A DNA stretch of 64,000 nt from Bolinopsis microptera (Eukaryota > Ctenophora > Tentaculata > Lobata > Bolinopsidae): contig NC_087078.1 in NCBI RefSeq assembly GCF_026151205.1, positions 18,639,765 to 18,703,764 on the forward strand, given 5' to 3'. A model generated the notes under the pieces. That model ran no database searches. It was not told where the DNA came from and saw only the letters and a program-made list of their open reading frames with translations. Shown one piece after another: positions 4,356-61,600 of this stretch (its first letter is position 1; each line of letters starts with the position of its first letter). The position numbers were made by a program, and so were the translations under genes.

Positions 4356-5597
4356 TTATACGAAATTCGGTAAAAAACCAAAATCGCCATATTCAGGTGC
4401 CTTAAAAACCATGTTAAAATTGAGTTAGAGATCTGAAATTTTTCAGGGCGTCTAGACGTTGACCAAATCGACTGCAAAAAAAGTTTCAGGTTTCAGGAGC
4501 ATCGGAAGTGGGTTTTCTAGAACCCCTGTTTTACGACAGATTGTCGTGATATCTATCTATATATATACATATATATATATTCAGGGATAGACGCTTTGCC
4601 AGTCAATTGTAGCCTGTATTTAATTGTCCATAGATTCAAAAGTATAAAAGATACAGCCATTTCCGACCACAGGTCTTGAAAATAATTGTTTACACTTTAG
4701 TTTACATTGTATAAACAAATTATTTGACGTCATGAACACCCCTTGATGACGTCATCAAGTTAACCGTTTTTAAAACTTGATTTTTGACAAAGTAATAACT
4801 TTTAAAAATGATTTTACACCATTAAAAAGTAATTGTATTCAAAATCTGAGGAAATTTTCACCTTAGATAATTGTTCAAGCATTCTGAAAATCTACCGGAA
4901 AGTTTTTCTAGCTTGTTCCTTCATAAAGATATTCGTCATTGAAGTTTGTGCTTTTTTGAAGAATTATTTTATAAAAACGTCATTTTGCGATTTAGTATTC
5001 TCTGGTGTTGGGCCATGCCTTGGGTTGTGGAGCTCAGTTCTGCTTCCTATAGGTATAAATTGTGCATTAGGCTAGTTTTAAAGTTGAAAATCAAAAAGTT
5101 GCACACGTGGGGACACGCCCAAATTGATAGAAAATCGCTAAAATCACTGAAAATCGCTGTTTTCGTCATTTTCTGTCAACTTTAGAGTGCCGTTGTGATT
5201 ACAGTTCTTGTTGAAATACTTTGAAACTTTGCATGCTTATCAAACTATATATAAAACAATTACATGCAAAAATTTACGGCATTTCAATATTGGATGCGCA
5301 CGCAACGTCCGCTCAAAGTTTGCATGTGCGAAAGGTGAGAATTTTGCTCATTCGTGATTTCCAACAAATTCTGCTTTATCACGACAGTTTAATGTCATTA
5401 TATATGAATTTAATGCCAACTTGAATGAGTATTAAGTGGCATATTCAGTCAGTGATCGACCGATATGCTTACCTAAACAAAAGAAAATGTTTTTAAAGGA
5501 AAAATTTCGAAATCGTTGAAACTTCCTCCTTATTAATGAAGATATCAGTTTATATTTCGACTTTATAATACCCTGACATTATAATCAAAAAGAGATG
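4356..5597. other. Intergenic/intronic AT-rich DNA
   Basis: Holds a short ATATATAC run near 4555-4580 and a stretch (about 5090-5330) that reads like a degenerate dispersed repeat. There is no coding exon that I can support. Confidence 0.4.
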
Positions 5598-6105: not shown

Positions 6106-8269
6106 GTATATACAGTATCCACATATATTAATGTATTCTACAAATTCTCCACATGTTTTGGAGGGCAAGTAAGAAGAACCATTCCATTCCAATGAAACTT
6201 CTCATCACATTGCCTCCCATCAGTGAATCCTATATTTAGACCATGTTAAATTTATCACTTAGTAATACGAAGTTGTTAAAAGCATACTAACACCTCTTTA
6301 AGTGTTTATGCTAACATTATATTCGCACCTAACAAGTTCTATAAGTCGACTAACGAGCTTAAGTTCCTATCGCTAAACGGACTTTATTGATGGTCCAACA
6401 AGTTTGTTATTTTTATTGTTGTACTTAATATAACACTAAAGAGCCTTTCATTTCCTCGCCCATTTACGTCATAATCACTGCTATAGTCAGTATACTATAA
6501 AAATGGCTTCACTTCAGTATTATATATCAGTCATAAGGGTTTCCTTTTTCTCTTGAGAGAAATCAGTTAGGATCGCAAACCAAAGGCCTATAATAATAAT
6601 TCTACGCCAAAAGTTACAGACCTAATTATGTCCAGAAAACTTGAGCTGATAACGCGTAAATTATTTATTTTTAAGAGTGATGTGGTTTAAGTGCTGTAGT
6701 GAGTCTGGGGTACAACTATTGCATGTAATATAGGGTTTGCATTATCGGTCCCTAATGTAATAGGAGTTTCTCCAGAACTTATACCACTTAGCCGTGCATA
6801 TGGTATTTATGCAATATGGTATTTTAAGGACACTTTTTGCCCTTAATGCTTCATGATGTCATTTCTTTTTTATTATTTTGAAAGTTTCAAATTGGATAAA
6901 ATCATCTAGACTAATCAATAATCATTTATTCATGACCATTTTTTGCATGCCTTCGTCTGGCTATATCTTGATCTTGGCAAGTTCAACTTAATAGCTTGGA
7001 GAGTCTAGTACTGATACCTCGAATGATGGGCAATACCGTGTTCAAATAACTCTCCGATGTTTAAAGCTGCGGGTCAGCTTCGAGTTTGAGTGAAATTATC
7101 AATTTATAACCCTCAATAAACTGATATAACACCTTTTACGTGCAGCTTACAATTATTTGCGCTATCTAATCTGAAGCAGCTGCGGCAAAAGTGCTCAAGA
7201 TGTTAACTATAAATTTATTTTGTCAATACTTTGACAACAGCTTTACGCTAGTTAATCTAAGTTGCATTAAACTATAGAGTTTGGACTGCTGTGGCAATAG
7301 TACTGACCAAATCGTGGTACTGGTAAAGCTGTGATCTATTTATCCTTTGAGCCACATTGCAACACCACTTTCTAACTTTATTAAGGCCCATTACCGAGGG
7401 TATATAAATACTCAATGAGTATCACCAACCCAAGTTTTCTGGAGTTATTTCGACGTACTGTTTTGCTGGCTCTTTGTCGTTTGTATGTCCATATTCTGTA
7501 AATTGGAAAAATTTGGGAAATCTCGCATATAATTATAAGGACTTGTACGAGCATTTGCGGCCGATTCCGGAACCACCATTTTAAGATATGGGGTGACATT
7601 CCGACGGCGTTGGTTAACCGACAAAAAAATTACAAGGGTCGAAAAAGTTGTAGCCCGCTACAAAATTGGACAAAAAACCATAAAGAGGCGGCAAAAAATA
7701 AGCAAAAGTAAAAACGACGATATTTTTCATTAATTTTTTAATTAGTTTTGTTTTAATTCATATAATTAATTAACTAAGGGTTGGCGAGACGGTTAAATCA
7801 ATTCATATGATCTTTTGGAACTGCGATGCCTCAGTGACGTCTGTTTTGATCTCCAATCAAATTTTGTGCCACCAGGAGGGAATTAATTGTCAAGTTCACT
7901 GTTCAGGTTATATAGATGTCATGTTATAAACAAAATGAATGTCCAAATGAATGTCCAAATATAGCCTAAAAGTGAAAGAGCCGCCACAACGTTATATGAT
8001 ATCGTCGCTTTGTTTATTGCTCGTGGTGAGCCTTGCCCAGTAGTTTTCCTCAAAGGTGGTGTCGGTGAGGTGTTGCGTTTAATGCTGCGAATTAAAGTTC
8101 CAACGTAATTCATTGGACAGATTAATTAGTTTGATGGTTAAAGTCTACTGCTCGTTATATTAATTAGTTTAATGCTCGTACTGTATACCCCCAGCTAAAT
8201 AATATTTGCTTGAAGACTCAAAGCCCTCAACATCAGACTGACGGCTCTATTATTACATTTTAGAGCACA
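6106..8269. other. Non-coding stretch upstream of the secreted-protein gene
   Basis: AT-rich sequence without supported exons on either strand. If the 3225 exon is an alternative first exon, this is intron. The promoter of the 8270 exon should lie at its right end, but no clear TATA box could be assigned. Confidence 0.4.
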
Positions 8270-21535: not shown

Positions 21536-22301
21536 CTGTTAATGTTAAGAGAAGATCACCATTATTCAAGAAACTGAATTTTAATTTGTATGACAAATAA
21601 GCATTGAAAGTTTTAGTTATGTCAAATCAAATATCAATAAATATAACAATTCACAATACAAGGTTCACAATCTTGTTACTGCAATTTGAAAAAAAATCAA
21701 GAAAAGTTCGAACTCGAAAACGATAAAGGGACTGTTTTTGGAATTTATAATTAACAGAACGAAATGCATTAAATTAATCAAAATAAATATCAGATCAAGA
21801 TGCGGGGAAAACACCATAACTATAAGCTGATGTATTTTACGCGCGGCAACATCGAAGAAGATGTTGTTTTTACATATTCAAAGTTAAGTTAATAATAAGT
21901 CAGGTCCTTCATACATTTCAGCATAGTATTAATAAGCATAAAATACAATTTTCCTTCAAAAACTCAAATAACTGTCCCAGTTCTATTCAATATCCAAATC
22001 ACTGCATTCGCTTTCACTTTCGTTTTAAATATCATCTACAAGGTCACAAGTAAAACTTTCTATATCGCGCTCAACCAACGCCCAATTTATGGATCTCTTG
22101 AATTGAACTACACTATACAGTGTATATAACTTCTCTCTTTTGTAAAACTTGCTTCCTCACAACCATTAACTCATACTTACACTTTAATTGGTCTATCTAA
22201 TAATTACTCAAAATTAAAAATATCGAAACCACTTTCTCTCAGAAATGTGCGTACTCTCATACACGTCATGACTCATGTGTCATGTGTCATGTGTCGGCAA
22301 C
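21536..22301. other. AT-rich spacer
   Basis: No exon or element recognised. The last 40 bp before the palindrome repeat ATGTGTCATGTGTC-type strings. Confidence 0.4.
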
Positions 22302-23383
22302 TTGGTCGTTTAGCTCCGGACAGTCTATGCAACGTCTATGCAACGTCCATGCAACAACAAAAGAACCGTCTATGCAACGTCTATGCAACGTCCCTGCACA
22401 ATGAACACTCTATGCACACTCCCTGCACGGTCAGTCTATGCAACGTCTATGCAACGTCTATGCAACGTCTATGCAACGTCCCTGCACAGTACCATATGAA
22501 CACCGGCTACTAGCCGGCTACTAGCCGGCTACTAGCCGGCTAGTAGCCACTTTTGTAATAACAGCTCCTCAACTTCACATTACCAACCGGCTACTAACCG
22601 GCACTTGAAAAGTGGTCACTAGCCGGCTACTAACCGGCTACTAGCCGGCTAGTGACCACAAAGTGGCTACTAACCGGCTACTAAGCGGTCACTAGCCGGC
22701 TATTAGCCGAGCTCTAAAGCAGACCTATTAGTAGCCGGTTCCAAACCGGCTACTAGCCGGCACTTAGAAAGCGGTCACTAGCCGGCTACTAACCGGCTAC
22801 TAACCGGCTAGTAACCACCAAGTGGCTACTAACCGGCTTCTAATAGGTCTGCTTTAGAGCCGGCTAGTGACCGGTTAGTAGCCGGTTAGTAGCCACTTGG
22901 TGGTTACTAGCCGGTTAGTAGCCGGCTAGTGACCGCTTTTCAAGTGCCGGCTAGTAGCCGGTTTAGAACCGGCTACTAATAGGTCTGCTTTAGAGCTCGG
23001 CTAATAGCCGGCTAGTGACCGCTTAGTAGCCGGTTAGTAGCCACTTTGTGGTCACTAGCCGGCTAGTAGCCGGTTAGTAGCCGGCTAGTGACCACTTTTC
23101 AAGTGCCGGTTAGTAGCCGGTTGTTAATGTGAAGTTGAGGAGCTGTTATTACAAAAGTGGCTACTAGCCGGCTAGTAGCCGGCTAGTAGCCGGTGTTCAT
23201 ATGGTACTGTGCAGGGACGTTGCATAGACGTTGCATAGACGTTGCATAGACTGACCGTGCAGGGAGTGTGCATAGAGTGTTCATTGTGCAGGGACGTTGC
23301 ATAGACGTTGCATAGACGGTTCTTTTGTTGTTGCACGGACGTTGCATAGACGTTGCATAGACTGTCCGGAGCTAAACGACCAA
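22302..23383. repeat. 1.08-kb palindrome built from two nested tandem motifs
   Basis: The left end TTGGTCGTTTAGCTCCGGAC is reverse-complemented at the right end, and the match continues inward through CTATGCAACGT repeats, then through ACTAGCCGGCT/ACTAACCGGCT repeats, to a centre near 22842. Both halves carry the same irregular details (for example the CCATGCAACAAC interruption, matched on the right as GTTGTTGCACGG). The inner motif is itself palindromic (AGCCGGCT). It has no credible coding content. Confidence 0.93.
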
Positions 23384-23527
23384 CTTCCCCATGTGTCTTG
23401 TAGTGGCGCTAAATAAAAATCTACAAAATATATAGCAGTTCCTAGTTTTCATTACAAATGTCTGCTATTCAGCTAGACTGATGATGATCGTGTAGTTATT
23501 CACAGATTTTAACAAATTTTTATCCCT

Positions 23528-36840: not shown

Positions 36841-39110
36841 ATCTCTAGACAAATGAATGTGTAGTGGTGGTATGTGTTATCTAGACAAATGAATGTGTAG
36901 TGGTGGTGTGTGTTATCTAGACAAATGAATGTGTAATGGTGGTGTGTGTTATCTAGACAAATGAATGTGTAGTGGTGGTGTGTGTTATCTAGACAAATGA
37001 ATGTGTAGTGGTGGTGTGTGTTATCTAGACAAATGAATGTGTAGTGGTGGTGTGTGTTATCTAGACAAATGAATGTGTAGTGGTGGTGTGTGTTATCTAG
37101 ACAAATGAATGTGTAGTGGTGGTGTGTGTTATCTAGACAAATGAATGTGTAGTGGTGGTGTGTGTTATCTAGACAAATGAATGTGTAGTAGTGGTGTGTG
37201 TTATCTAGACAAATGAATGTATAGTGGTGGTGTGTGTTATCTAGACAAATGAATGTGTAATGGTGGTGCGTGTTATCTAGATAAATGAATGTGTAGTGGT
37301 GGTGTGTGTTATCTAGACAAATGAATGTGTAGTGGTGGTGTGTGTTATCTAGACAAATGAATGTGTAGTGGTGGTGTGTGTTATCTAGACAAATGAATGT
37401 GTAGAGGTGGTGTGTGTTATCTAGACAAATGAATGTGTAGTGGTGGTGTGTGTTATCTAGACAAATGAATGTGTAGTGGTGGTGTGTGTTATCTAGACAA
37501 ATGAATGTGTAGTGGTGGTGTGTGTTATCTAGACAAATGAATGTGTAGTGGTGGTGTGTGTTATCTAGACAAATGAATGTGTAGTGGTGGTGTGTGTTAT
37601 CTAGACAAATGAATGTGTAGTGGTGGTGTGTGTTATCTAGACAAATGAATGTGTAGTGGTGGTGTGTGTTATCTAGACAAATGAATGTGTACTGGTGGTG
37701 TGTGTTATCTAGACAAATGAATGTGTAGTGGTGGTGTGTGTTATCTAGACATATGAATGTGTAGTGGTGGTGTGTGTTATCTAGACAAATGAATGTGTAG
37801 TGGTGGTGTGTGTTATCTAGACAAATGAATGTGTAGTGGTGGTGTGTGTTATCTAGACAAATGAATGTGTAGTGGTGGTGTGTGTTATCTAGACAAATGA
37901 ATGTGTAGTAGTGGTGTGTGTTATCTAGACAAATGAATGTATAGTGGTGGTGTGTGTTATCTAGACAAATGAATGTGTAATGGTGGTGCGTGTTATCTAG
38001 ATAAATGAATGTGTAGTGGTGGTGTGTGTTATCTAGACAAATGAATGTGTAGTGGTGGTGTGTGTTATCTAGACAAATGAATGTGTAGTGGTGGTGTGTG
38101 TTATCTAGACAAATGAATGTGTAGAGGTGGTGTGTGTTATCTAGACAAATGAATGTGTAGTGGTGGTGTGTGTTATCTAGACAAATGAATGTGTAGTGGT
38201 GGTGTGTGTTATCTAGACAAATGAATGTGTAGTGGTGGTGTGTGTTATCTAGACAAATGAATGTGTAGTGGTGGTGTGTGTTATCTAGACAAATGAATGT
38301 GTAATGGTGGTGTGTGTTATCTAGACAAATGAATGTGTAGTGGTGGTGTGTGTTATCTAGACAAATGAATGTGTAGTGGTGGTGTGTGTTATCTAGACAA
38401 ATGAATGTGTAGTGGTGGTGTGTGTTATCTAGACAAATGAATGTGTAGTGGTGGTGTGTGTTATCTAGACAAATGAATGTGTAGTGGTGGTGTGTGTTAT
38501 CTAGACAAATGAATGTGTAGTGGTGGTGTGTGTTATCTAGACAAATGAATGTGTAGTGGTGGTGTGTGTTATCTAGACAAATGAATGTGTAGTGGTGGTG
38601 TGTGTTATCTAGACAAATGAATGTGTAGTGGTGGTGTGTGTTATCTAGACAAATGAATGTGTAGTGGTAGTGTGTGTTATCTCTAGACAAATGAATGTGT
38701 AGTGGTAGTGTGTGTTATCTAGACAAATGAATGTGTAGTGGTGGTGTGTGTTATCTAGACAAATGAATGTGTAGTGGTGGTGTGTGTTATCTAGACAAAT
38801 GAATGTGTAGTGGTAGTGTGTGTTATCTCTAGACAAATGAATGTGTAGTGGTAGTGTGTGTTATCTAGACAAATGAATGTGTAGTGGTGGTGTGTGTTAT
38901 CTAGACAAATGAATGTGTAGTGGTGGTGTGTGTTATCTCTAGACAAATGAATGTGTAGTGGTGGTGTGTGTTATCTAGACAAATGAATGTGTAGTGGTGG
39001 TGTGTGTTATCTAGACAAATGAATGTGTAGTGGTGGTGTGTGTTATCTAGACAAATGAATGTGTAGTGGTGACTGGTGGTGTATATATATGGTGTGTGTT
39101 ATCTGTAAAT
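36841..39110. repeat. 36-bp minisatellite, about 63 copies, 720-bp higher order
   Basis: Core TTATCTAGACAAATGAATGT with GTAGTGGTGGTGTGTG. Variant units at 37180-37430 recur in the same order 720 bp later (37900-38150), that is a 20-unit segmental duplication. On the minus strand it reads as an open frame of 12-aa units (LDNTHHHYTFIC) of more than 600 aa, but it lies in an intron, so I treat the frame as spurious. Confidence 0.95.
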
Positions 39111-40328: not shown

Positions 40329-42062
40329 CTGAAGTGAAAGTGAAAGTGAAACTCAGGGTGAGCGAGAGGTATCACGTGGTAAGTGAATATCATGAATGAA
40401 GGTTTCATCTGTTCAAATTTTTATAGCCGTGTTAGAATTACGGAAAATCGGTGGTTAAGTTTCACGAATCACGTTCATTAAAAGTTAAAATTTCAATGTA
40501 AGTCAAATTTTCAATCCCATTTGAAGGTTTATGTGTTAAAAACTTAGTGAGTGGAAATAAAATTATAGATGATGAACGTACATAGTATTAATCGCAGCTA
40601 TATTTTCTTAATGAAAACTTCACCCAATTTTCTGATACCAAGAGAAACTATGAGTAAAAACTCATTGATGATGTTCAATTGAATTGGAAAACAAATTGAG
40701 TTGAGATGAAGAGCAAAAGTTGAAGCTTTAGTAGAGTTAGAGATGTGTGTTCGACGATCGAGAGATTGGTTAAAAGTGCGGTCGAAATAAAGGTTAAAAG
40801 AAAGATTGAAACTTGAAAACTGGATTGATTTTAAAGTTCCACCAATTCAGGAAATGACGTAGTACACATCCGGGATGCACCAAAGTTTTGGCGTAATCTT
40901 TCCGGTCTGTTTTTAAGTGCTGTAGATAAAAGTATGTAGCTACTCGCTGGTTGAGGATTACTTAGTTTGGAACTCAAGCAAGGAGTAAAGGTATTGATAA
41001 AGCAGCTCTAGAGAATCAAAGTAAATAATACAAAAAGTTATAATTCCTTAAATAATTGGCAGGTTGGCTGAGAGTCCGTCTCGATAAAGATAAAAGGGAC
41101 TGACGAATCCATCAATCCTAGATGACCTATAGCACTGTTTCATTTCCAAGCATTTTTAAAACAAATGTAGTTTAGTCTATTTAAAAATAAACAGAACTAC
41201 GACAGAACGTCACAGTACTGTCGCAGTTCTGTCATAGACAAAAGACAGAGGATATCAATGCAACAAGTTGAAACAACAGAGATTGAGGTCACGTGCTCTT
41301 CACTCACGACTCAGGCGCCACAGGTTCTTCTTACTACTACTAACGATAGCACTACGCAACAAATCTGACGACGACATCAGGACGACTTTTTAACTAGCGA
41401 CGACACTTGACGACGAAACTTGACGACGACTAATGATCAGGAATAAAAACCGGTTACGTTTAACCAGACAGTATGCAACACAATTACACACTTATCAAAG
41501 CAGATACAAAAGTTTCTAAACTGTAGTTGTTTGGTGATTTTGAAGCTGAATGTAGGTATACTATTGTCACCAGTCGCACATTTAATGAAACTGTCCGTTG
41601 TTATATCTCGCTAATCGGAGACAAAGGAGGAATTAGAAAGCACATGGTACTACGGTGTGTTTGTGCACGTGCGACAATGTGAACTATACCTGGTGTTCCA
41701 GTGCACGTGCAGTGCGGGGTGGTAGTTTGTCGGAACACGCAGGGTAGTGATTATTTCTTTTGTTTAGCTGTCAGTAGTGAAATTGGACGTAATTCTGTGC
41801 GATGTTGAAACAAACAGATTAATTAAAATCTCAGTCAATCGGTGTCTAGACGAATGCTAGACGAATACAATCCTCACTTCCTCATTCTTCACAAGCTCAG
41901 TTGATTGAGGCAAATCCCGTGGTTCGGATATTGGCTCGAGGATGAAGCTTTTATCTTCAGATAAAAGCAATGATATCTATTAAGTGCTGCTCATTATCCG
42001 ATATTTGTCATTCGTATACATCTGTATAGATCACGGTATATCGTCAAAATTGTTGACTCATT
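40329..42062. other. Intron of the Q-rich/ARM gene
   Basis: AT-rich; a cluster of GACGACGA-type triplets lies near 41360-41430. No exon supported. Confidence 0.5.
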
Positions 42063-42628
42063 TAGTTAGGGAATAATGCAAAATGTCTGGGAAAAAATTT
42101 GCGACAAGCTGATTTTTACAGGAATGTGTTGTCCATAGTGTCAGGAACCACCCCAAAGAGTTTCCAATCTGGATCTGTTGAGCAAAAAAAGTTACAGCCA
42201 ATTTTCTTCAGGCGCGTATGTCAGCCTGAGGACCGCACTTGAAAAACTCGTAACTATCGTAATAAAGACCCCCAGGAGCACCATAGGGGGTGAAAAATGA
42301 CCGCAATAGTGACATTATGTGGGGCGAATCAGTGTTTTAGGGTCGTCAGATCTTTACTTATTGAGATAATTTCATTTTTATATGCAAACCTCTCAAAAAT
42401 TTACTAAAATTTTGAAATTTTACTTAAATTTGGAAATTTTGCTAAATTGTTGTACAATTAAAACATTGTCTAGTTATCAGTATTCAAATTCTAAAATTTA
42501 CTTTCAATTGTCAATTGATCCTTATATTAGTATAGTAAATAATATACATATCACATCAAATTCTGTAAAAAAAGGTCCTGAATTATTAGCATGGTGTCTT
42601 TGATTGGCAACTATTAGGTCACTTCTGG

Positions 42629-42880
42629 CTATCCCATTTCCTCAGAGTTGTTTGATTCTCCTGAATCGTCCTGTCTTTCGGGTGCATTAGTGCAACTTAA
42701 TCCATGACATTGGCCACATGCAGGTACACATTTAAAGCCATACTTCCGGCAGGAACACCTTAAGTACTTACAAGGGTTCTCAACCTCCACCGAGCAATTG
42801 CAGCAAATGAGGTTGAGCATCCCTGCCGGGGCAATCGCAGCTTTAGTCGGGATTGGCCGGTAGTATCCTTCAGAACTCAT
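42629..42880 (-). pseudogene. Left-arm copy of the Cys-rich C-terminus
   Basis: Mirror copy of the C-terminal part of the element gene: YYRPIPTKAAIAPAGMLNLI, then a Cys-rich stretch (CCNCSVEVENPCKYLRCSCR, followed by KYGFKCVPACGQCHGLSC). This copy lacks the stop that interrupts the right-arm copy and has one substitution (V/L). It has no promoter or upstream domain of its own and probably exists only because the arms are inverted duplicates. Confidence 0.8.
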
Positions 42881-43096
42881 CTCCCATCCATAATGTAGTG
42901 GATTTAGACTTGCAGTGGCAGACTCCGGACTGGAAGACCTTATGAGATTAGTCTACCCTGGGGATGTAACTCACATAATGGACGGTGGATCCTATTACAA
43001 AGCACTGAGGGCCCACTTTTTAAGTTTGATTAAAAAGATTGTGCTCTCTGCTGCTATTTATTTGAGGACAAAATAGCAGAGGAGGATCTTGAAGAT

Positions 43097-43784
43097 ATGG
43101 CTAGCTATATTGCCAAGTGTAGCAATGAAAAACTCGGTGTAAACCACAAGACCAGAGTCGTACAAGAGTTATCAGAGCCTATAAAAAATAAGTTCGAGAT
43201 GTTATCGTCGAACAGCTGCTCTTTGGACAACTTATCATGGTTTCATTTGCTTAATAAAAGATTTTTTAAGAGCAGAACGGTTACATGACTTCGATCTACA
43301 TCTTGCAATTGTGGCTAAGATGTTGCCTATCTTTGCAGCAGCAGGTCGAGGTCAGTACTCCAAAGCTCTACGGCTGTATCTTGAGCAGATTACCATACTT
43401 GAGATTCAGTATGGGGCACTAGCCAAAACGTTCAAGGTCGTAGGTCTGCACACAGTTCGATATAATGAACACGAGTGGTCTGGTGTGTGGACAGACCTGT
43501 CGATCGAACAGCGACTAATGAAGGCTGCAAAGTCATCAGGGGGTTTGTCTGGAGGGAGAATGCGAACTCATGAATCTGCCCATAAGTTATGGACTGCAAC
43601 CCTCAATCAAATGGCGTTGATAAACGAGAGTGTCGATGAAGCTATTGCAGACTTATCCAATAAAAGAACAACAACAAAAGCCTCTAGTGCTAATCACTCA
43701 GATCTTAGCAAATCTTCTGTACAGTTAAACAAAAAATTTCAGTTAAACAAAAATTTCAATTTTATGCCATTTATTACAGATTAA
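43097..43784 (+). pseudogene. Element gene, N-terminal fragments
   Basis: Two overlapping frames carry the start of the element protein. 43097-43288 reads MASYIAKCSNEKLGVNHKTR; from about 43305 a second frame reads LPIFAAAGRGQYSKALRLYL, HEWSGVWTDLSIEQRLMKAA and SSGGLSGGRMRTHESAHKLW. A frameshift separates them. The WSGxWTDxxIEQxLM...SxGGLxxGR pattern is one I associate with a repetitive, uncharacterised protein family in Hydra and arthropod genomes (memory, unchecked). Confidence 0.7.
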
Positions 43785-44507
43785 ACAAGTTTACAATAAA
43801 TCAATTTGATATTTAACGGAATTCTAATTCAATGTGCAGTATGGTTGTCACTCTTTAAATAGATTAGATATAGGTTGACGGGGCAAAGGAGTGTGCGTGC
43901 TGTTCGCTATTGCTCACACCAAACGGCAGCCTAGTAAATGTTTTGTATGAACACCGGTCTCCATCACGATACAAAATTAGGATTGTAGAATTTATTTTAT
44001 AACTATTAGTGCAGTGGAGGTAGCGGTGTGGTGCATTAATAGAGTGACAGCCTACTGATTTAGAGTTGTTTTTAAGTGAGCATAATGGGTGTATTTTTGG
44101 ATCTAATGGCAACTTTAAAATTTGTTCTTTTAATCATTTATTAAATATCAGTTTAAAAATATATAAATCTGGAATCTGTTCACTATGTGAACCATTCCTA
44201 TAAAAATTTCAAAAACCCTCCTAAATTAAATATTAAAAACGTCTCAGTAATGGAAATAGTCATACAATTAAGAAATTAACCAAATTCTTAATATCTACCT
44301 AAGAGAAAAATACCTGGTACCTAAGTCAATTTCTACCTGTAATACACTAAATATTAGGTTAAATACATAGGTGGTGGAGTCAGCACACATTTACCAAAAT
44401 CAAATTTGTTTAATAGGAGGAGCCTGTGGGCCGAGATCACTGGATTAAATTTGATGAAGGGGATTGTTTTCAAATGACAGCTGCATTATGTACAGAAAAA
44501 TATTGCA

Positions 44508-44939
44508 GTGTTTACCAAGCTGTTGTGTTGGTTTAAAGATACAGCTGATTTCGACGAATCTGAAGACAAGACTAAAATGCTATCGTACTCAACGGGTCTC
44601 ATATCACAGAAAGAGAAGGATAATGTCAACCCAGAAGATTGCATTTCAGTTGGTACCGCCCTCCAGAAAGAGCTGGATGGCAAAAGCTTTATCGAAAAGT
44701 TTCGAGTTAAAGGCAAAGTCGGACAGTGAGGGTGAACGAAAAAGACATTGTTATAGACTCATTGACAATTTTTAATCGGCTTGTCTTCGCATCTGAACGA
44801 GAGTCTACACTGGAGGAAAGCTTGCAATATGAGCTCACAGCAATGCCGATGAGTCTTTTTAACAATGAGCAGATGATGAGAAAGGCTAACAAGGCAGTCG
44901 AGCCCTTGGGCAATACCTCAAGAATGTTGTTGATTGTAC
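44508..44939 (+). pseudogene. Element gene, middle fragments
   Basis: 44508-44729 encodes EDKTKMLSYSTGLISQKEKD and ALQKELDGKSFIEKF; after a frameshift near 44727, 44726-44944 gives RVNEKDIVIDSLTIFNRLVF and ESTLEESLQYELTAMPMSLF. Together these form the conserved region before the nuclease-like domain. The two frames overlap by a few bases, showing a small indel. A third frame change precedes 44941. Confidence 0.7.
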
Positions 44940-44940
44940 T

Positions 44941-46149
44941 GTGACATTTAGCAACCCATCCTCCCCATTAATAATTGATGGTGGATGGCTACTCTATCAA
45001 GTTACCTCGTTCACAGGCTTTGAAACATACGGCGACATAGCTAATGAATACCTTAAGCTAGTTCCGAATACCGAACAGCGGAAAGTGATTGTTGTGTTTG
45101 ATGGCTATGCCCGATCAACAAAAGATCATGAGCATCTGCATCAGCGAAGAATCAAGGCATACTGCTCTGATATAGCTATTAAAAGTACTACTGTGTGCAC
45201 AGTTCCGATGAAAAAACTGTTCAGCAACTCAAAGAACAAGCATGAGCTTATAAAGCTTCTGTCGAACGTTTTTACAGAACATGGAATTGAAGTACATGTA
45301 GCTACTGATGATGCTGATACCATGGTAGCTAATAAAGCTTTAAACTTGTCCTTCTACGAAGATGTTGAGGTAAAAGCAGAGGATAATGATATACTTTGCC
45401 TCCTTATTCATCATTTTACTGAGAATCACAATAAATTTGTGATGACGACCAGAAACGGCTCACACTCGATCAGTAAAATAGTAAATGCTCCTGATGCCAA
45501 CATAAAACGTATATTACTGTTTGTTCACAGTTTCTCAGGATGTGACACGGTCAGCAGTATACATGGCTTTGGTAAGGTGAAGATATTGAAAAAGGCAGTT
45601 TCTTTTCATGAGGAGGGTCATTTAGCATCATTACTCTCTGTGAGAGTTTCAACAAATGAAGTAATTGAAGCTGGCCTCTCCTTGTATCAACATATCTAAG
45701 GAGATAAAACCAAGGCACTTGAAACTCTCAGATTTCTCAGCTACAGTAGAATGATAGCAAAGAAAAAACTCAACCCATCAAGGCTACCACCGTCTACATC
45801 CTCTGCAACTGAGCATATATTAAGATCATATCTTCAGTACCATAACTGGGTGACACTCGACACTGCAAGTCTAAATCCACTACATTATGGATGGGAGATG
45901 AGTTCTGAAGGATACTACCGGCCAATCCCGACTAAAGCTGCGATTGCCCCGGCAGGGATGCTCAACCTCATTTGCTGCAATTGCTCGGTGGAGGTTGAGA
46001 ACCCTTGTTAGTACTTAAGGTGTTCCTGCCGGAAGTATGGCTTTAAATGTCTACCTGCATGTGGCCAATGTCATGGATTAAGTTGCACTAATGCACCCGA
46101 AAGACAGGACGATTCAGGAGAATCAAACAACTCTGAGGAAATGGGATAG
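44941..46149 (+). pseudogene. Element gene: FEN1/PIN-like nuclease domain and CXC-like tail
   Basis: One frame with two in-frame stops (TAA 45697-45699, TAG 46009-46011), ending at TAG 46147-46149. Residues 8-70 give SPLIIDGGWLL and VIVVFDGYARSTKDHEHLHQ, matching the XPG/FEN1 N-region (Asp13, VFDG with Asp54, downstream Lys and Arg). DDADTMVA (123-130) and EDNDIL (147-152) match the XPG-I acidic residues; SGCDT (199-203) adds another Asp. After the first stop comes NWVTLDTASLNPLHYGWEM, then a Cys-rich tail with about 12 Cys (CNCS, CSCR, CGQCHGLSC) resembling CXC zinc clusters. I infer a nuclease-type element protein, inactive here. Confidence 0.75.
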
Positions 46150-46726
46150 CCAGAAGTGACCTAATAGTTGCCAATCAAAGACACCATGCTAATAATTCAG
46201 GACCTTTTTTTACAGAATTTGATGTGATATGTATATTATTTACTATACTAATATAAGGATCAATTGACAATTGAAAGTAAATTTTAGAATTTGAATACTG
46301 ATAACTAGACAATGTTTCAATTGTACAACAATTTAGCTAAATTTCCAAATTTAAGTAAAATTTCAAAATTTTAGTAAATTTTTGAGAGGTTAGCATATAA
46401 AAATGAAATCATCTCAATAAGTAAAGATCTGACGACCCTAAAACACTGATTCGCCCCACATAATGTCACTATTGCGGTCATTTTGCACCCCCTATGGTGC
46501 TCCTGGGGGTCTTTATTACGATAGTTACGAGTTTTTCAAGTGCGGTCCTCAGGCTGACATACGCGCCTGAAGAAAATTGGCTGTAACTTTTTTTGCTCAA
46601 CAGATCCAGATTGGAAACTCTTTGGGGTGGTTCCTGACACTATGGACAACACATTCCTGTAAAAATCAGCTTGTCGCAAATTTTTTCCCAGATGGTCCTG
46701 TATTAATGTTAATTGTCCCTAACTAA

Positions 46727-47030
46727 TTGTTGAGAATACAAATAATTAATATTCTTCAGTTTTCACACCTTCAGTGTGCCCAAAATGCCTCGTATCCGAT
46801 ATAATACCACACACTACAAAAGTTGGGAAAAGATCCCAGAAAGCAGCAAGATGTGAATGATCATGTGAAGGGTAGAAGATCAAACCAGTTCTAAGAAACT
46901 ATTTGGTGATGTCAAAGAAAACACCCCGACTTGGCACCAGAATGATAAGAAGAACGCAGTAGCTCAGTTATAAGTAGTACTCAGTTATAAGTAAGCTATG
47001 AAGATAAGAAATGTTCAGCTGATAACTTAC
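46727..47030. other. Intron sequence
   Basis: Between the element and the next linker exon; nothing recognised. Confidence 0.5.
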
Positions 47031-51473: not shown

Positions 51474-54400
51474 GTAGAATTAGTAGTGTAGTCATAGAAT
51501 TAGTAGTGTAGTCATAGATACACACGGTTATAAATAGTAGTGTAGTCATAGATACACACGGTTATAAATAGTAGTGTAGTCATAGCTACACACCGTTATA
51601 AATAGTAGTGTAGTCATAGATACACACGGTTATAAATAGTAGTGTAGTCATAGATACACACGGTTATAAATAGTAGTGTAGTCATAGATACACACGGTTA
51701 TTAATAGTAGTGTAGTCATAGATACACACGGTTATAAATAGTAGTGTAGTCATAGATACACACGGTTATAAATAGTAGTGTAGTCATAGATACACACGGT
51801 TATAAATAGTATTGTAGTCATAGATACACACGGTTATAAATAGTAGTGTAGTCATAGATACACACGGTTATAAATAGTAGTGTAGTCATAGATACACACG
51901 GTTATAAATAGTATTGTAGTCATAGATACACACGGTTATAAATAGTAGTGTAGTCATAGATACACACGGTTATAAATAGTAGTGTAGTCATAGATACTCA
52001 CGGTTATAAATAGTATTGTAGTCATAGATACACACGATTATAAATAGTATTGTAGTCATAGATACACACGGTTATAAATAGTAGTGTAGTCATAGATACA
52101 CACGGTTATAAATAGTATTGTAGTCATAGATACACACGGTTATAAATAGTATTGTAGTCATAGATACACACGGTTATAAATAGTAGTGTAGTCATAGATA
52201 CACGCGGTTATAAATAGTATTGTAGTCATAGATACACACGGTTATAAATAGTAGTGTAGTCATAGATACACACTGTTATAAATAGTAGTGTAGTCATAGA
52301 TACACACGGTTATAAATAGTAGTGTAGTCATAGATACACACCGTTATAAATAGTATTGTAGTCATAGATACACACGGTTATAAATAGTAGTGTAGTCATA
52401 GATACACACGGTTATAAATAGTAGTGTAGTCATAGATACACACGGTTATAAATAGTAGTGTAGTCATAGATACACACGGTTATAAATAGTATTGTAGTCA
52501 TAGATACACACGGTTATAAATAGTATTGTAGTCATAGATACACACGGTTATAAATAGTAGTGTAGTCATAGATACACACGGTTATAAATAGTAGTGTAGT
52601 CATAGATACACACGGTTATAAATAGTATTGTAGTCATAGATACACACGGTTATAAATAGTAGTGTAGTCATAGATACACACGGTTATAAATAGTAGTGTA
52701 GTCATAGATACACACGGTTATAAATAGTAGTGTAGTCATAGATACACACGGTTATAAATAGTATTGTAGTCATAGATACACACGGTTATAAATAGTAGTG
52801 TAGTCATAGATACACACGGTTATAAATAGTAGTGTAGTCATAGATACACACGGTTATAAATAGTATTGTAGTCATAGATACAAACGGTTATAAATAGTAG
52901 TGTAGTCATAGATACACACGGTTATAAATAGTAGTGTAGTCATGGATACACACCGTTATAAATAGTAGTGTAGTCATAGATACACACGGTTATAAATAGT
53001 ATTGTAGTCATAGATACACACGGTTATAAATAGTAGTGTAGTCATGGATACACACCGTTATAAATAGTAGTGTAGTCATAGATACACACGGTTATAAATA
53101 GTAGTGTAGTCATAGATACACACGGTTATAAATAGTAGTGTAGTCATAGATACACACGGTTATAAATACTAAATAGTAGTGTAGTCATAGATACACACGG
53201 TTATAAATAGTAGTGTAGTCATAGATACACACGGTTATAAATAGTAGTGTAGTCATAGATACACACGGTTATAAATAGTAGTGTAGTCATAGATACACAC
53301 GGTTATAAATAGTAGTGTAGTCATAGATACATACGGTTATAAATAGTAGTGTAGTCATAGATACACACGGTTATAAATAGTATTGTAGTCATAGATACAC
53401 ACGGTTATAAATAGTATTGTAGTCATAGATACACACGGTTATAAATAGTAGTGTAGTCATAGATACATACGGTTATAAATAATAGTGTAGTCATAGATAC
53501 ACACGGTTATAAATAGTATTGTAGTCATAGATACACACGGTTATAAATAGTATTGTAGTCATAGATACACACGGTTATAAATAGTAGTGTAGTCATAGAT
53601 ACACACGGTTATAAATAGTAGTGTAGTCATAGATACACACGGTTATAAATAGTAGTGTAGTCATAGATACACACGGTTATAAATAGTAGTGTAGTCATAG
53701 ATACACACGGTTATAAATAGTATTGTAGTCATAGATACACACGGTTATAAATAGTAGTGTAGTCATAGATACACACCGTTATAAATAGTAGTGTAGTCAT
53801 AGATACACACGGTTATAAATAGTATTGTAGTCATAGATACACACCGTTATAAATAGTAGTGTAGTCATAGATACACACGGTTATAAATAGTAGTGTAGTC
53901 ATAGATACACACGGTTATTAATAGTAGTGTAGTCATAGATACACACGGTTATAAATAGTAGTGTAGTCATAGATACACACGGTCATAAATAGTAGTGTAG
54001 TCATAGATACACACGGTTATAAATAGTATTGTAGTCATAGATACACACGGTTATAAATAGTATTGTAGTCATAGATACACACGGTTATAAATAGTATTGT
54101 AGTCATAGATACACACGGTTATAAATAGTAGTGTAGTCATAGATACACACGGTTATAAATAGTATTGTAGTCATAGATACACACGGTTATAAATAGTAGT
54201 GTAGTCATAAATACACACGGTTATAAATAGTAGTGTAGTCATAGATACACACGGTTATAAATAGTAGTGTAGTCATAGATACACACGGTTAAAATAGTAG
54301 TGTAGTCATAGATACACACGGTTATAAATAGTAGTGTAGTCATAGATACACACGGTTATAAATAGTATTGTAGTCATAGATACACACGGTTATAAATAGT

Positions 54401-56240
54401 AGTGTAGTCATAGATACACACCGTTATAAATAGTAGTGTAGTCATAGATACACACGGTTATAAATAGTATTGTAGTCATAGATACACACCGTTATAAATA
54501 GTAGTGTAGTCATAGATACACACGGTTATAAATAGTAGTGTAGTCATAGATACACACGGTTATTAATAGTAGTGTAGTCATAGATACACACGGTTATAAA
54601 TAGTAGTGTAGTCATAGATACACACGGTTATAAATAGTAGTGTAGTCATAGATACATACGGTTATAAATAGTAGTGTAGTCATAGATACACACGGTTATA
54701 AATAGTATTGTAGTCATAGATACACACGGTTATAAATAGTATTGTAGTCATAGATACACACGGTTATTAATAGTAGTGTAGTCATAGATACACACGGTTA
54801 TAAATAGTAGTGTAGTCATAGATACACACGGTTATAAATAGTAGTGTAGTCATAGATACACATGGTTATTAATAGTAGTGTAGTCATAGATACACACGGT
54901 CATAAATAGTAGTGTAGTCATAGATACACACGGTTATAAATAGTATTGTAGTCATAGATACACACGGTTATAAATAGTATTGTAGTCATAGATACACACG
55001 GTTATAAATAGTATTGTAGTCATAGATACACACGGTTATTAATAGTATTGTAGTCATAGATACACACGGTTATAAATAGTAGTGTAGTCATAGATACACA
55101 CGGTTATAAATAGTAGTGTAGTCATAGATACACACGGTTATAAATAGTAGTGTAGTCATAGATACACACGGTTATAAATAGTAGTGTAGTCATAGATACA
55201 CACGGTTAAAATAATAGTGTAGTCATAGATACACACGGTTATAAATAGTAATGTAGTCATGGATACACACGGTTATAAATAGTATTGTAGTCATAGATAC
55301 ACACGGTTATAAATAGTAGTGTAGTCATAGATACACACCGTTATAAATAGTAGTGTAGTCATAGATACACACGGTTATAAATAGTATTGTAGTCATAGAT
55401 ACACACCGTTATAAATAGTAGTGTAGTCATAGATACACACGGTTATAAATAGTAGTGTAGTCATAGATACACACGGTTATTAATAGTAGTGTAGTCATAG
55501 ATACACACGGTTATAAATAGTAGTGTAGTCATAGATACACACGGTTATAAATAGTAGTGTAGTCATAGATACACACGGTTATAAATACTAAATAGTAGTG
55601 TAGTCATAGATACACACGGTTATAAATAGTATTGTAGTCATAGATACACACGGTTATAAATAGTAGTGTAGTCATAGATACACACGGTTATAAATAGTAG
55701 TGTAGTCATATATACACACGGTTATAAATAGTATTGTAGTCATAGATACACACGGTTATAAATAGTAGTGTAGTCATAGATACACACGGTTATAAATAGT
55801 AGTGTAGTCATAGATACACACGGTTATAAATAGTAGTGTAGTAATAGATACACACGGTTATAAATAGTAGTGTAGTCATAGATACACACGGTTATAAATA
55901 GTATTGTAGTCATAGATACACACGGTTATAAATAGTAATGTAGTCATAGATACACACGGTTATAAATAGTATTGTAGTCATAGATACACACCGTTATAAA
56001 TAGTAGTGTAGTCATAGATACACACGGTTATAAATAGTAGTGTAGTCATAGATACACACGGTTATTAATAGTAGTGTAGTCATAGATACACACGGTTATA
56101 AATAGTAGTGTAGTCATAGATACACACGGTTATAAATAGTAGTGTAGTCATAGATACACACGGTTATAAATAGTAGTGTAGTCATAGATACACACGGTTA
56201 TTAATAGTAGTGTAGTCATAGATACACAAGGTTATAAATA
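51474..56240. repeat. 34-bp minisatellite, about 140 copies, 4.8 kb
   Basis: Core GTAGTCATAGATACACACGG with TTATAAATAGTA. Two main unit types alternate (AGTAGTG and AGTATTG); minor variants (ACACACCG, TTATTAAT, a 1-bp-shorter GGTTAAAAT unit) recur in the same order at about 645 and 917 bp spacing, showing block duplications. It fills one intron of the Q-rich/ARM gene. Confidence 0.97.
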
Positions 56241-57072
56241 GTTGCACAACGCTTCCAGTAGGGTTCCATTCAGGCGTGGCAAAGAGAATCGTAAATTATG
56301 CGGTCCCGCAAGTTTTTTGATTCCGCAAAGTTTTTCATTCTTTTAGAGTTATTTACCTACCCAAAGTGGGTAAATGGCTCTTAAAGATGCAGAAAATGTA
56401 CGGCAAATTATGCGATTTCACAAACACCGCGACTAAACGGTAAAATGGCGTCCCTGACCAGAACGCTTCACGGCTTCATACCAAGATTTGAAAGTATTTG
56501 TTGCCGTTCACTGTTCCCAGTTTACATTGCATTAAATTAACTAAATTAGACCGCGTGATGAATAATAATAAACCACGTGACCTATGACGTCACAAATTGA
56601 CCTTGACCAATGTCCATCATCCCAAACTTAAGAGAGGTGATTATAGCAGACAGGTAAATCTACACAAGTAGCTGCATAGCAGTACGTGGTAGTGATTAGG
56701 CTGAGCTGCTTGCGGAGTGGGATTAGTCACTGACGTGCAATGAACTTGATTGAGGCTCATCATAGCTGTGTACTTAACTTTACTACATTTATTTTGAAGT
56801 TATATGTACTTTGAACTTACTTAATTTAATACTAACTTACTTCTATTGTCGAATTTAAAAATTGGAGTTGAAGCAGATCATTTAAATATCATCATTTAAA
56901 ATCTCATCTAAAGTAACATAATGCAATATTACAGGCGCCTCAAGATTAGCAAAATTAGTATTACAGAGTGCAGACTGTAATTAATGTCCACGTCCAACCA
57001 AAGCCCTGAAATCTTAAACGCTCTCTGCGAAAATCTTTTAAACATAACCTAAAACTGAATAAAAATACTCAC
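56241..57072. other. Intron sequence
   Basis: Unique AT-rich DNA; no exon or element supported. Confidence 0.5.
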
Positions 57073-59969: not shown

Positions 59970-61600
59970 CATGGGGTCTTTCAGACTGAACAAGTAACTG
60001 AAGAAGGCGAGGACGGTCTAAGAGGTTACAGAAATCGAGAAGAGCTAAAAGAAACACAAACCAAAGGAACAGCTCAATTTTGACCTGTACGAAAGAACTA
60101 AAAACTAAGAAGGAGAGCGCTGGGGTCTTTGAGACTGAACGAGTAAATGAGGAAGGCGAGGATGGTCTAAGAGGTTACAGAAATCGAGAAGAGCTAAAAG
60201 AAACACAAACCAAAGGAACAGCTCAATTTTGACCTGTACGAAAGAACTAAAAACTAAGAAGGAGAGCGCTGGGGTCTTTGAGACTGAACAAGTAACTGAG
60301 GAAGGCGAGGATGGTCTAAGAGGTTACAGAAATCGAGAAGAGCTAAAAGAAACACAAACCAAAGGAACAGCTCAATTTTGACCTGTACGAAAGAACTAAA
60401 AACTAAGAAGGAGAGCGCTGGGGTCTTTCAGACTGAACAAGTAACTGAAGAAGGCGATGACGGTCTAAGAGGTTACAGAAATCGAGAAGAGCTAAAAGAA
60501 ACACAAACCAAAGGAACAGCTCAATTTTGACCTGTACGAAAGAACTAAAAACTAAGAAGGAGAGCGCTGGGGTCTTTGAGACTGAACGAGTAAATGAGGA
60601 AGGCGAGGATGGTCTAAGAGGTTACAGAAATCGAGAAGAGCTAAAAGAAACACAAACCAAAGGAACAGCTCAATTTTGACCTGTACGAAAGAACTAAAAA
60701 CTAAGAAGGAGAGCGCTGGGGTCTTTGAGACTGAACAAGTAACTGAGGAAGGCGAGGATGGTCTAAGAGGTTACAGAAATCGAGAAGAGCTAAAAGAAAC
60801 ACAAACCAAAGGAACAGCTCAATTTTGACCTGTACGAAAGAACTAAAAACTAAGAAGGAGAGCGCTGGGGTCTTTGAGACTGAACAAGTAACTGAGGAAG
60901 GCGAGGATGGTCTAAGAGGTTACAGAAATCGAGAAGAGCTAAAAGAAACACAAACCAAAGGAACAGCTCAATTTTGACCTGTACGAAAGAACTAAAAACT
61001 AAGAAGGAGAGCGCTGGGGTCTTTGAGACTGAACGAGTAAATGAGGAAGGCGAGGATGGTCTAAGAGGTTACAGAAATCGAGAAGAGCTAAAAGAAACAC
61101 AAACCAAAGGAACAGCTCAATTTTGACCTGTACGAAAGAACTAAAAACTAAGAAGGAGAGCGCTGGGGTCTTTGAGACTGAACGAGTAAATGAAGAAGGC
61201 GAGGATGGTCTAAGAGGTTACAGAAATCGAGAAGAGCTAAAAGAAACACAAACCAAAGGAACAGCTCAATTTTGACCTGTACGAAAGAACTAAAAACTAA
61301 GAAGGAGAGCGCTGGGGTCTTTGAGACTGAACGAGTAAATGAGGAAGGCGAGGATGGTCTAAGAGGTTACAGAAATCGAGAAGAGCTAAAAGAAACACAA
61401 ACCAAAGGAACAGCTCAATTTTGACCTGTACGAAAGAACTAAAAACTAAGAAGGAGAGCGCTGGGGTCTTTGAGACTGAACGAGTAAATGAGGAAGGCGA
61501 GGATGGTCTAAGAGGTTACAGAAATCGAGAAGAGCTAAAATAAACACAAGCCAAAGGAACAGCTTAATTTTTACCTGTACTAAAAACTAAGAAGGAGAGC
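59970..61600. repeat. 149-bp satellite, about 11 copies with trimer higher-order start
   Basis: Units start GAGAGCGCTGGGGTCTTT and recur every 149 bp. Diagnostic variants (CAGACTGAACAAG / GAGACTGAACGAG / GAGACTGAACAAG) occur in the same three-unit order twice (447 bp period), then the array homogenises to the GAACGAG type, and the last copy degenerates. Confidence 0.95.

Follow-up and report, generated by a model that had tools for sequence, protein, structure and literature searches.

Coding inverted arms in a Bolinopsis microptera transposon remnant: a probable fold-back derivative of an Academ-like family with an XPG/FEN-type nuclease domain

Does an element whose long inverted arms contain the end of its own gene represent a separate class of transposon, or is it a derivative of an ordinary one? 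The question is raised by the element at positions 42063-46725 of a 64,000-nt stretch of the Bolinopsis microptera genome (the window, C7:18639765-18703764 in our contig numbering; 264.7 Mb in 232 contigs were searched), which has ATT on both flanks as a 3-bp target duplication. A sequence-only reading of the window had taken it for a mobile system outside the standard classes, with arms of about 860 bp and an XPG/PIN-type nuclease. Our results indicate that it is a DNA transposon copy, now dead and rearranged, with a flap-nuclease domain in its enzyme. We consider it likely that it is a non-autonomous fold-back derivative of an Academ (AcademX-like) cut-and-paste transposon, formed via repair of an excision gap and mobilised in trans.

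The arms are real, each measuring 832 nt besides the tips (42086-42917 and 45861-46692), with 99% complementarity and 2943 nt between them, and they are the longest among 47 inverted-repeat pairs of at least 60 nt in the window (25 of the 47 listed). A chance inverted repeat was ruled out, because a genome search with the left arm gave at least 41 matches (40 of 248 candidates scored; the count takes in both arms of the window element as well as split pieces) and because copies share their ends together with target duplications; all copy counts given here are lower bounds. The two ends of the element have TAGTTAGGGA in common and then diverge over about 23-33 bp, the left end thereby having a Y tip and the right end an X tip. 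The features, with ordinary terminal inverted repeats abbreviated as TIRs, are as follows.

42060-42062, no strand: target-site duplication ATT, left copy
42063-42085, plus strand: terminal tip Y, TAGTTAGGGAATAATGCAAAATG; a pattern that starts with this tip has 36 genome sites at no more than 3 mismatches (reversed control, 0)
42086-42917, minus strand: left inverted arm, comprising an ordinary TIR (~370 bp) and, as an inverted copy, the gene's 3' end with its Cys-rich tail
42916-42917, no strand: inversion junction J1, joining positions 6840/4658 of the full-length copy A (see below) with a 2-bp overlap
42918-43724, plus strand: remnant of the transposase region, SGLEDLMR through WSGVWTDLSIEQ, 96.5% to copy A 4658-5463
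43725-44488, no strand: nested high-copy repeat of 764 bp, with TGTACAG at both sides
44489-45860, plus strand: remaining coding region, in which frame 44941-45699 is the XPG/FEN-type nuclease domain
45861-46692, plus strand: right inverted arm, comprising the 3' end of the gene (Cys-rich tail, stop codon at 46009-46011) and a ~370-bp TIR
46693-46725, minus strand: terminal tip X, TAGTTAGGGACAATTAACATTAATACAGGACC in inward reading, with 27 genome sites at no more than 3 mismatches (reversed control, 0)
46726-46728, no strand: target-site duplication ATT, right copy

As had been read from the letters, which gave 80-90 codons, the end of the gene (its last ~83 codons) sits inside the arms; the left arm holds an intact frame of 83 residues on the minus strand (42629-42880), and in the right arm the tail frame is cut by the stop codon. 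The frames likewise bear out the order proposed for the centre, namely the WSGVWTDLSIEQ region (frame 43311-43784), the VFDG / DDADT / EDNDIL / GCDT region of XPG type (44941-45699), and then the CXC-like Cys tail. Two features had gone unmentioned in that reading. The coding sequence is broken and, judged from coordinates, the first ~519 residues of the 1342-residue frame of copy A are absent; further, there is the nested 764-bp repeat, for which a 762-bp query yielded at least 40 matches (40 of 461 candidates scored, its own included), all at least 96% identical. No terminal inverted repeat was found in the nested repeat, which has self-complementary matches of only 10-13 bp.

The mobility suggested by the arms was borne out at the level of the genome. 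We located both ends of 29 copies, designated family 1 and aligned on copy A, and a 3-bp target duplication is present in 25 of them (one also readable as 4 bp), whereas 10,000 shufflings of the right flanks gave 1.8 on average and never more than 9; the copies without it are C12:3258866, C13:6100473, C7:2320317 and C2:14391884. Sites matching a tip at one end only (e.g., C3:4295458 and C8:11508422) were kept out of the 29. A query with the nuclease domain gave at least 154 matches (150 of 203 candidates scored), among them split pieces and members of more distant families. The sequence-only reading recommended looking for intact copies; the sole full-length one among the 29 is copy A (C7:12447076-12454769, 7694 bp). 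It has TIRs of 370 bp with 98.4% identity plus X and Y tips, a 3-bp target duplication (GTT on the gene strand), and a single open frame of 1342 residues, in which a conserved D...GFH...E region is present along with the nuclease and the tail; frames upstream of it show CxxC motifs. This frame ends at 7125 and the TIR starts at 7303, past the stop codon. The long arms are thus secondary, since copy A has ordinary ~370-bp TIRs that begin after the stop codon, and coding sequence within terminal repeats is not the mark of a class.

Ordinary TIRs were found in 7 of the 29 copies. Among them, an internal deletion joining positions 438/4222 is common to three (C11:1648564, C5:9169987 and C2:14391884), and the joints 438/727 and 844/4346 are common to another three (C3:5515795, C7:8514432 and C11:19689924).

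The assignment of the nuclease to the FEN1/XPG type, proposed from motifs, found support of several kinds. The domain has a profile match to EXO1 (E-value 7e-4), and in a Foldseek search with the predicted model the top 18 matches all belong to the EXO1/FEN1/XPG/GEN1 group (template-modelling, or TM, scores 0.26-0.36 of the query). Residues D16, D57, D125, D127, D149, D151 and D203 are invariant in all 6 rows of the nuclease alignment, and D57, D127, D149, D151 and D203 in all 8 rows of a wider one; the PIN-like fold thus comes with acidic residues in the order of the XPG/FEN1 (Rad2) family. As for the tail, a search of the family 1 protein with the Tesmin/TSO1 CXC domain (PF03638) gave no match, and one of five relatives scanned passed the cut-off (L077, 24.6 versus 23.5 bits). 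In the transposase region, an aspartate (in TFD/TLD/VCD), the motif G(G/E)(F/L)H and D...EQ recur down to ~20% identity, and the region may work by DDE (aspartate-aspartate-glutamate) chemistry.

Further transposase-XPG families, at ~22% identity, were noted at four loci, L076 (C1:17560800), L077 (C5:1988400), L078 (C7:10448000) and L079 (C11:9122400). Their frames are unbroken and of 1438-1562 residues, one of them running off the end of the sequence examined, and this superfamily may therefore have been active in the genome recently. Residues 649-927 of L079 match Pfam DUF6589 under the cut-off (19.9 versus 27 bits, E-value 3e-4); this family, without assigned function, is perhaps a relative of these transposases.

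In the other 22 of the 29 copies the inverted arms are extended, with an inverted 3' end in place of the 5' part. These copies fall into junction classes, named here by the positions of copy A that they join. J1 (6840/4658) comprises the window element, C10:13185162 and C8:7806545, the joint being identical letter for letter in all three. J2 (6575/4920) has eight copies, namely C13:6100473, C6:6398276, C6:9644170, C7:17145250, C8:1881322 and C55:27467, together with C6:3257987 (see J4) and C7:13731759, which looks like J2 minus ~23 bp at the joint. J3 (5775/5079) has seven, with the joint at the same place in C2:8451555, C5:3833270, C5:11759203, C7:2320317, C8:1378769 and C8:14145287, and with C8:11127712 assigned by coordinates. 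J5 (7056/4164) is a single copy, C13:7703987. We rejected J4 as an independent event, its only copy (C6:3257987) being J2 with a further deletion that spares the joint and about 21 bp preceding it. J6 (5772/6875; C10:10161907) breaks within 3 bp of J3 and has three bases absent from J3; it is probably a fifth inversion event rather than a J3 derivative. C4:2343528 also has extended arms and is assigned to no junction class, and C12:3258866 is a diverged copy. The inversion therefore arose independently at least four times in family 1, and probably five times, and three of its forms, J1, J2 and J3, multiplied at unlinked sites, to 3, 8 and 7 copies. The products J1, J2, J3 and J5 share one layout, in which the 5' half is lost and the outer tips are retained: tip, TIR and inverted 3' coding end over 2.6-3.5 kb, joined with an overlap of 0-2 bp to a 3' end of 0.64-1.92 kb. 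All mapped inversions stop at the tips, flanking DNA not being included.

In a second, related family (family 2), a single locus was mapped individually, L068 (C3:19167951-19171820), with paired 749-bp arms and the duplication TTT. It is the only locus with two long opposite arm matches among at least 45 matches (40 of 311 candidates scored, so that partners may be missed).

The origin that we favour for the fold-back copies would start from a complete parent of 7.7 kb, with ~370-bp TIRs, 3-bp duplications, and a protein composed of a transposase region, an XPG/FEN-fold nuclease and a CXC-like zinc tail. Its excision would leave a gap, to be repaired with a sister copy as template, and both broken ends would invade the same 3' TIR of that template, given the similarity between the element's two TIRs. 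For the window copy, ~3 kb would have been copied inward from one end and ~0.85 kb from the other before the two tracts were joined with the 2-bp overlap. Such a repair product would retain both original tips and carry two inverted 3' ends, and it could then have been moved in trans by intact elements; ordinary internal deletions would be products of the same repair process with correct invasion. Later recombination between arms would keep them alike and flip the centre in some copies.

Traces of such later exchange were found in both the tips and the arms. On the long side, all 3 J1 copies and 7 of the 8 J2 copies bear the X tip. In J3 (n=7), three copies have X and three have Y on the long side, and one is Y/Y; this mixture therefore indicates inversion through recombination between arms. 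For the arms, 17 of the 22 extended-arm copies were entered and 16 used, C13:6100473 being dropped for its split arm (left out were C8:11127712, C10:10161907, C13:7703987, C4:2343528 and C12:3258866). Beyond the TIR, the arms of a copy diverged by 0.78%, against 1.78% when pairs were shuffled, and none of 2000 shuffles reached so low a value (n=16). By class, the values within a copy and between copies on the same side were 0.58% versus 1.64% for J2, 0.80% versus 1.93% for J3, and 1.20% versus 1.65% for J1. The lower divergence within copies therefore points to later conversion, provided that in each class the arms separated from each other earlier than the copies.

These arm data also bring in the strongest competing explanation, that of ectopic gene conversion between TIRs or between elements, whose tract would extend beyond the TIR and reach the 3' coding region with no excision gap; we hold this to be possible but rather doubtful. 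It agrees with the average homogenisation within copies and with the inversion of the centre, by which arms are seen to recombine, and the authors of work on the Galileo transposon propose conversion tracts exceeding the TIR (PMC3573991). However, conversion alone should spare the 5' region past the tract, and J1, J2, J3 and J5 are without the 5' half; moreover, the overlap of 0-2 bp at their joints looks like the end joining of two repair tracts.

Several observations weigh against our own proposal of gap repair in an Academ-like element, or restrict it. The 3:3 mixture of J3 orientations and the Y/Y copy need arm recombination as a second process. Homogenisation holds on average and has exceptions: for the segment beyond the TIR, the nearest arm belongs to another copy in 9 of the 16 (the window element included) and to the same copy in 6, with one tie, and the arms of C5:3833270 differ by 2.86%, above its mean distance to other copies (2.57%). 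Taken together, the results within and between copies therefore suggest that arm exchange goes on within copies and probably between copies as well. C8:11127712 and C2:14391884 were covered at their two ends, whose pairing is read from collinearity. On the protein side, the nuclease model is only partly confident, with a mean predicted local distance difference test (pLDDT) score of 56.9 besides the TM-scores given above; the transposase-region model is poor (mean pLDDT 49.3) and gave no convincing structural match, and the 1342-residue protein matches no Pfam or NCBIfam family at E-values up to 1. Mobility is read here from sequence rather than from observed transposition, excision or transcript, and the Academ label from the nuclease and the duplication length rather than from comparison with Academ reference sequences.

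A distinct class that needs long coding inverted arms for its mobility, as the sequence-only reading had it, is very improbable. Extended arms do prevail in 22 of the 29 mapped copies, and three junction classes have multiplied. Nevertheless, the sole full-length copy is among the 7 ordinary ones, whose TIRs measure ~370 bp and of which 6 show 3-bp duplications; arm length and junction vary among the classes, and family 2 offers one locus with paired arms among the candidates scored. That same reading had named two findings that would reduce the locus to a local inverted duplication of an ordinary gene: a single copy in the genome, contradicted by the 29 mapped, and copies lacking inverted arms, which do exist in the sense of extended arms, although 3-bp duplications still adjoin the ends of 6 of those 7. 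Such a host-gene duplication, or an artefact of assembly in the form of a palindromic long-read chimera, was rejected as having practically no chance of being correct, for although long-read assemblies are generally known to contain fold-back artefacts, identical junctions recur at unlinked loci with flanks of their own, 25 of 29 copies have the 3-bp duplication, and the mapped inversions finish at the tips and exclude flanking DNA.

Besides the element, the window contains a large satellite array with a 34-bp unit and about 139 copies (51501-56242), a tandem array with a 36-bp unit and about 62 copies within a stretch of strong GC skew (36844-39071), and a tandem repeat with a 149-bp unit and about 11 copies (59972-61590). 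Nested inverted repeats at 22296-23389 (323 nt, 96%, with a 34-nt loop; outer arms of 187 nt) are perhaps another palindromic element.

Family 1 thus provides a natural series of full element, deletion derivative and fold-back derivative, with base-level junctions, duplications and traces of arm exchange. This series comes from a family other than P elements, and with it the origin of fold-back elements becomes testable by junction counts. Long inverted arms are no ground for a separate transposon class until the parent has been found.

With regard to known systems, the nuclease of AcademX is of the XPG type, for which the X stands, and work by Kojima in 2020 reportedly concerned AcademH. The AcademX lineage has a nuclease besides the transposase and target duplications of 3 or 4 bp (PMC10045372). 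Copy A likewise has a nuclease beside its transposase region and 3-bp duplications, and the claim that no known class uses an XPG enzyme was wrong, because this combination fits the AcademX lineage. In a mollusc library, Academ elements are among the longest curated DDE elements, with a mean of 5565 bp (PMC10294476), as against 7694 bp in copy A; fold-back forms with coding arms are unmentioned in the accessible portions of both accounts, and a limited literature search found no report of fold-back Academ elements. The group of EXO1, FEN1, XPG and GEN1 matches the C-terminal nuclease domain in fold and acidic-motif order, whereas in the element this domain forms one protein with a transposase region and a CXC-like tail, and identity over the aligned ranges is about 9-16%.

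The closest parallels to the arms come from two other systems. Mu killer in maize derives from an autonomous element; part of a transposase gene is duplicated there in inverted orientation, and one TIR is present twice (PMC3440606). This locus is proposed to silence its parent via hairpin RNA; the inverted derivatives of family 1, by contrast, are mobile and numerous, and known from DNA alone. By analogy, they might form mobile, self-multiplying hairpin loci, in effect a Mu killer that moves, whose double-stranded RNA would act against the autonomous element, and the element's own flap nuclease might promote the strand exchange that creates them, an idea that we regard as unlikely. Galileo, of the P superfamily in Drosophila, shows the same recurrent lengthening of TIRs by inverted internal, non-TIR sequence, for which recombination or conversion, possibly after excision breaks, has been proposed (PMC3573991, PMC4168063). 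The recruited segments named there are F1/F2, which adjoin the TIRs, whereas family 1 recruits the 3' coding end, in J1, J2, J3 and J5 to an extent of about 0.25-1.5 kb past the TIR, with the remaining 5' half gone; further, family 1 makes 3-bp duplications instead of the 7-8 bp of the P superfamily. The remaining interest lies in how frequent and successful fold-back forms are in an Academ-like family, and in the chance of a mobile-silencer role. Compared with these systems, what seems to be new is the frequency and dominance of TIR extension in such a family.

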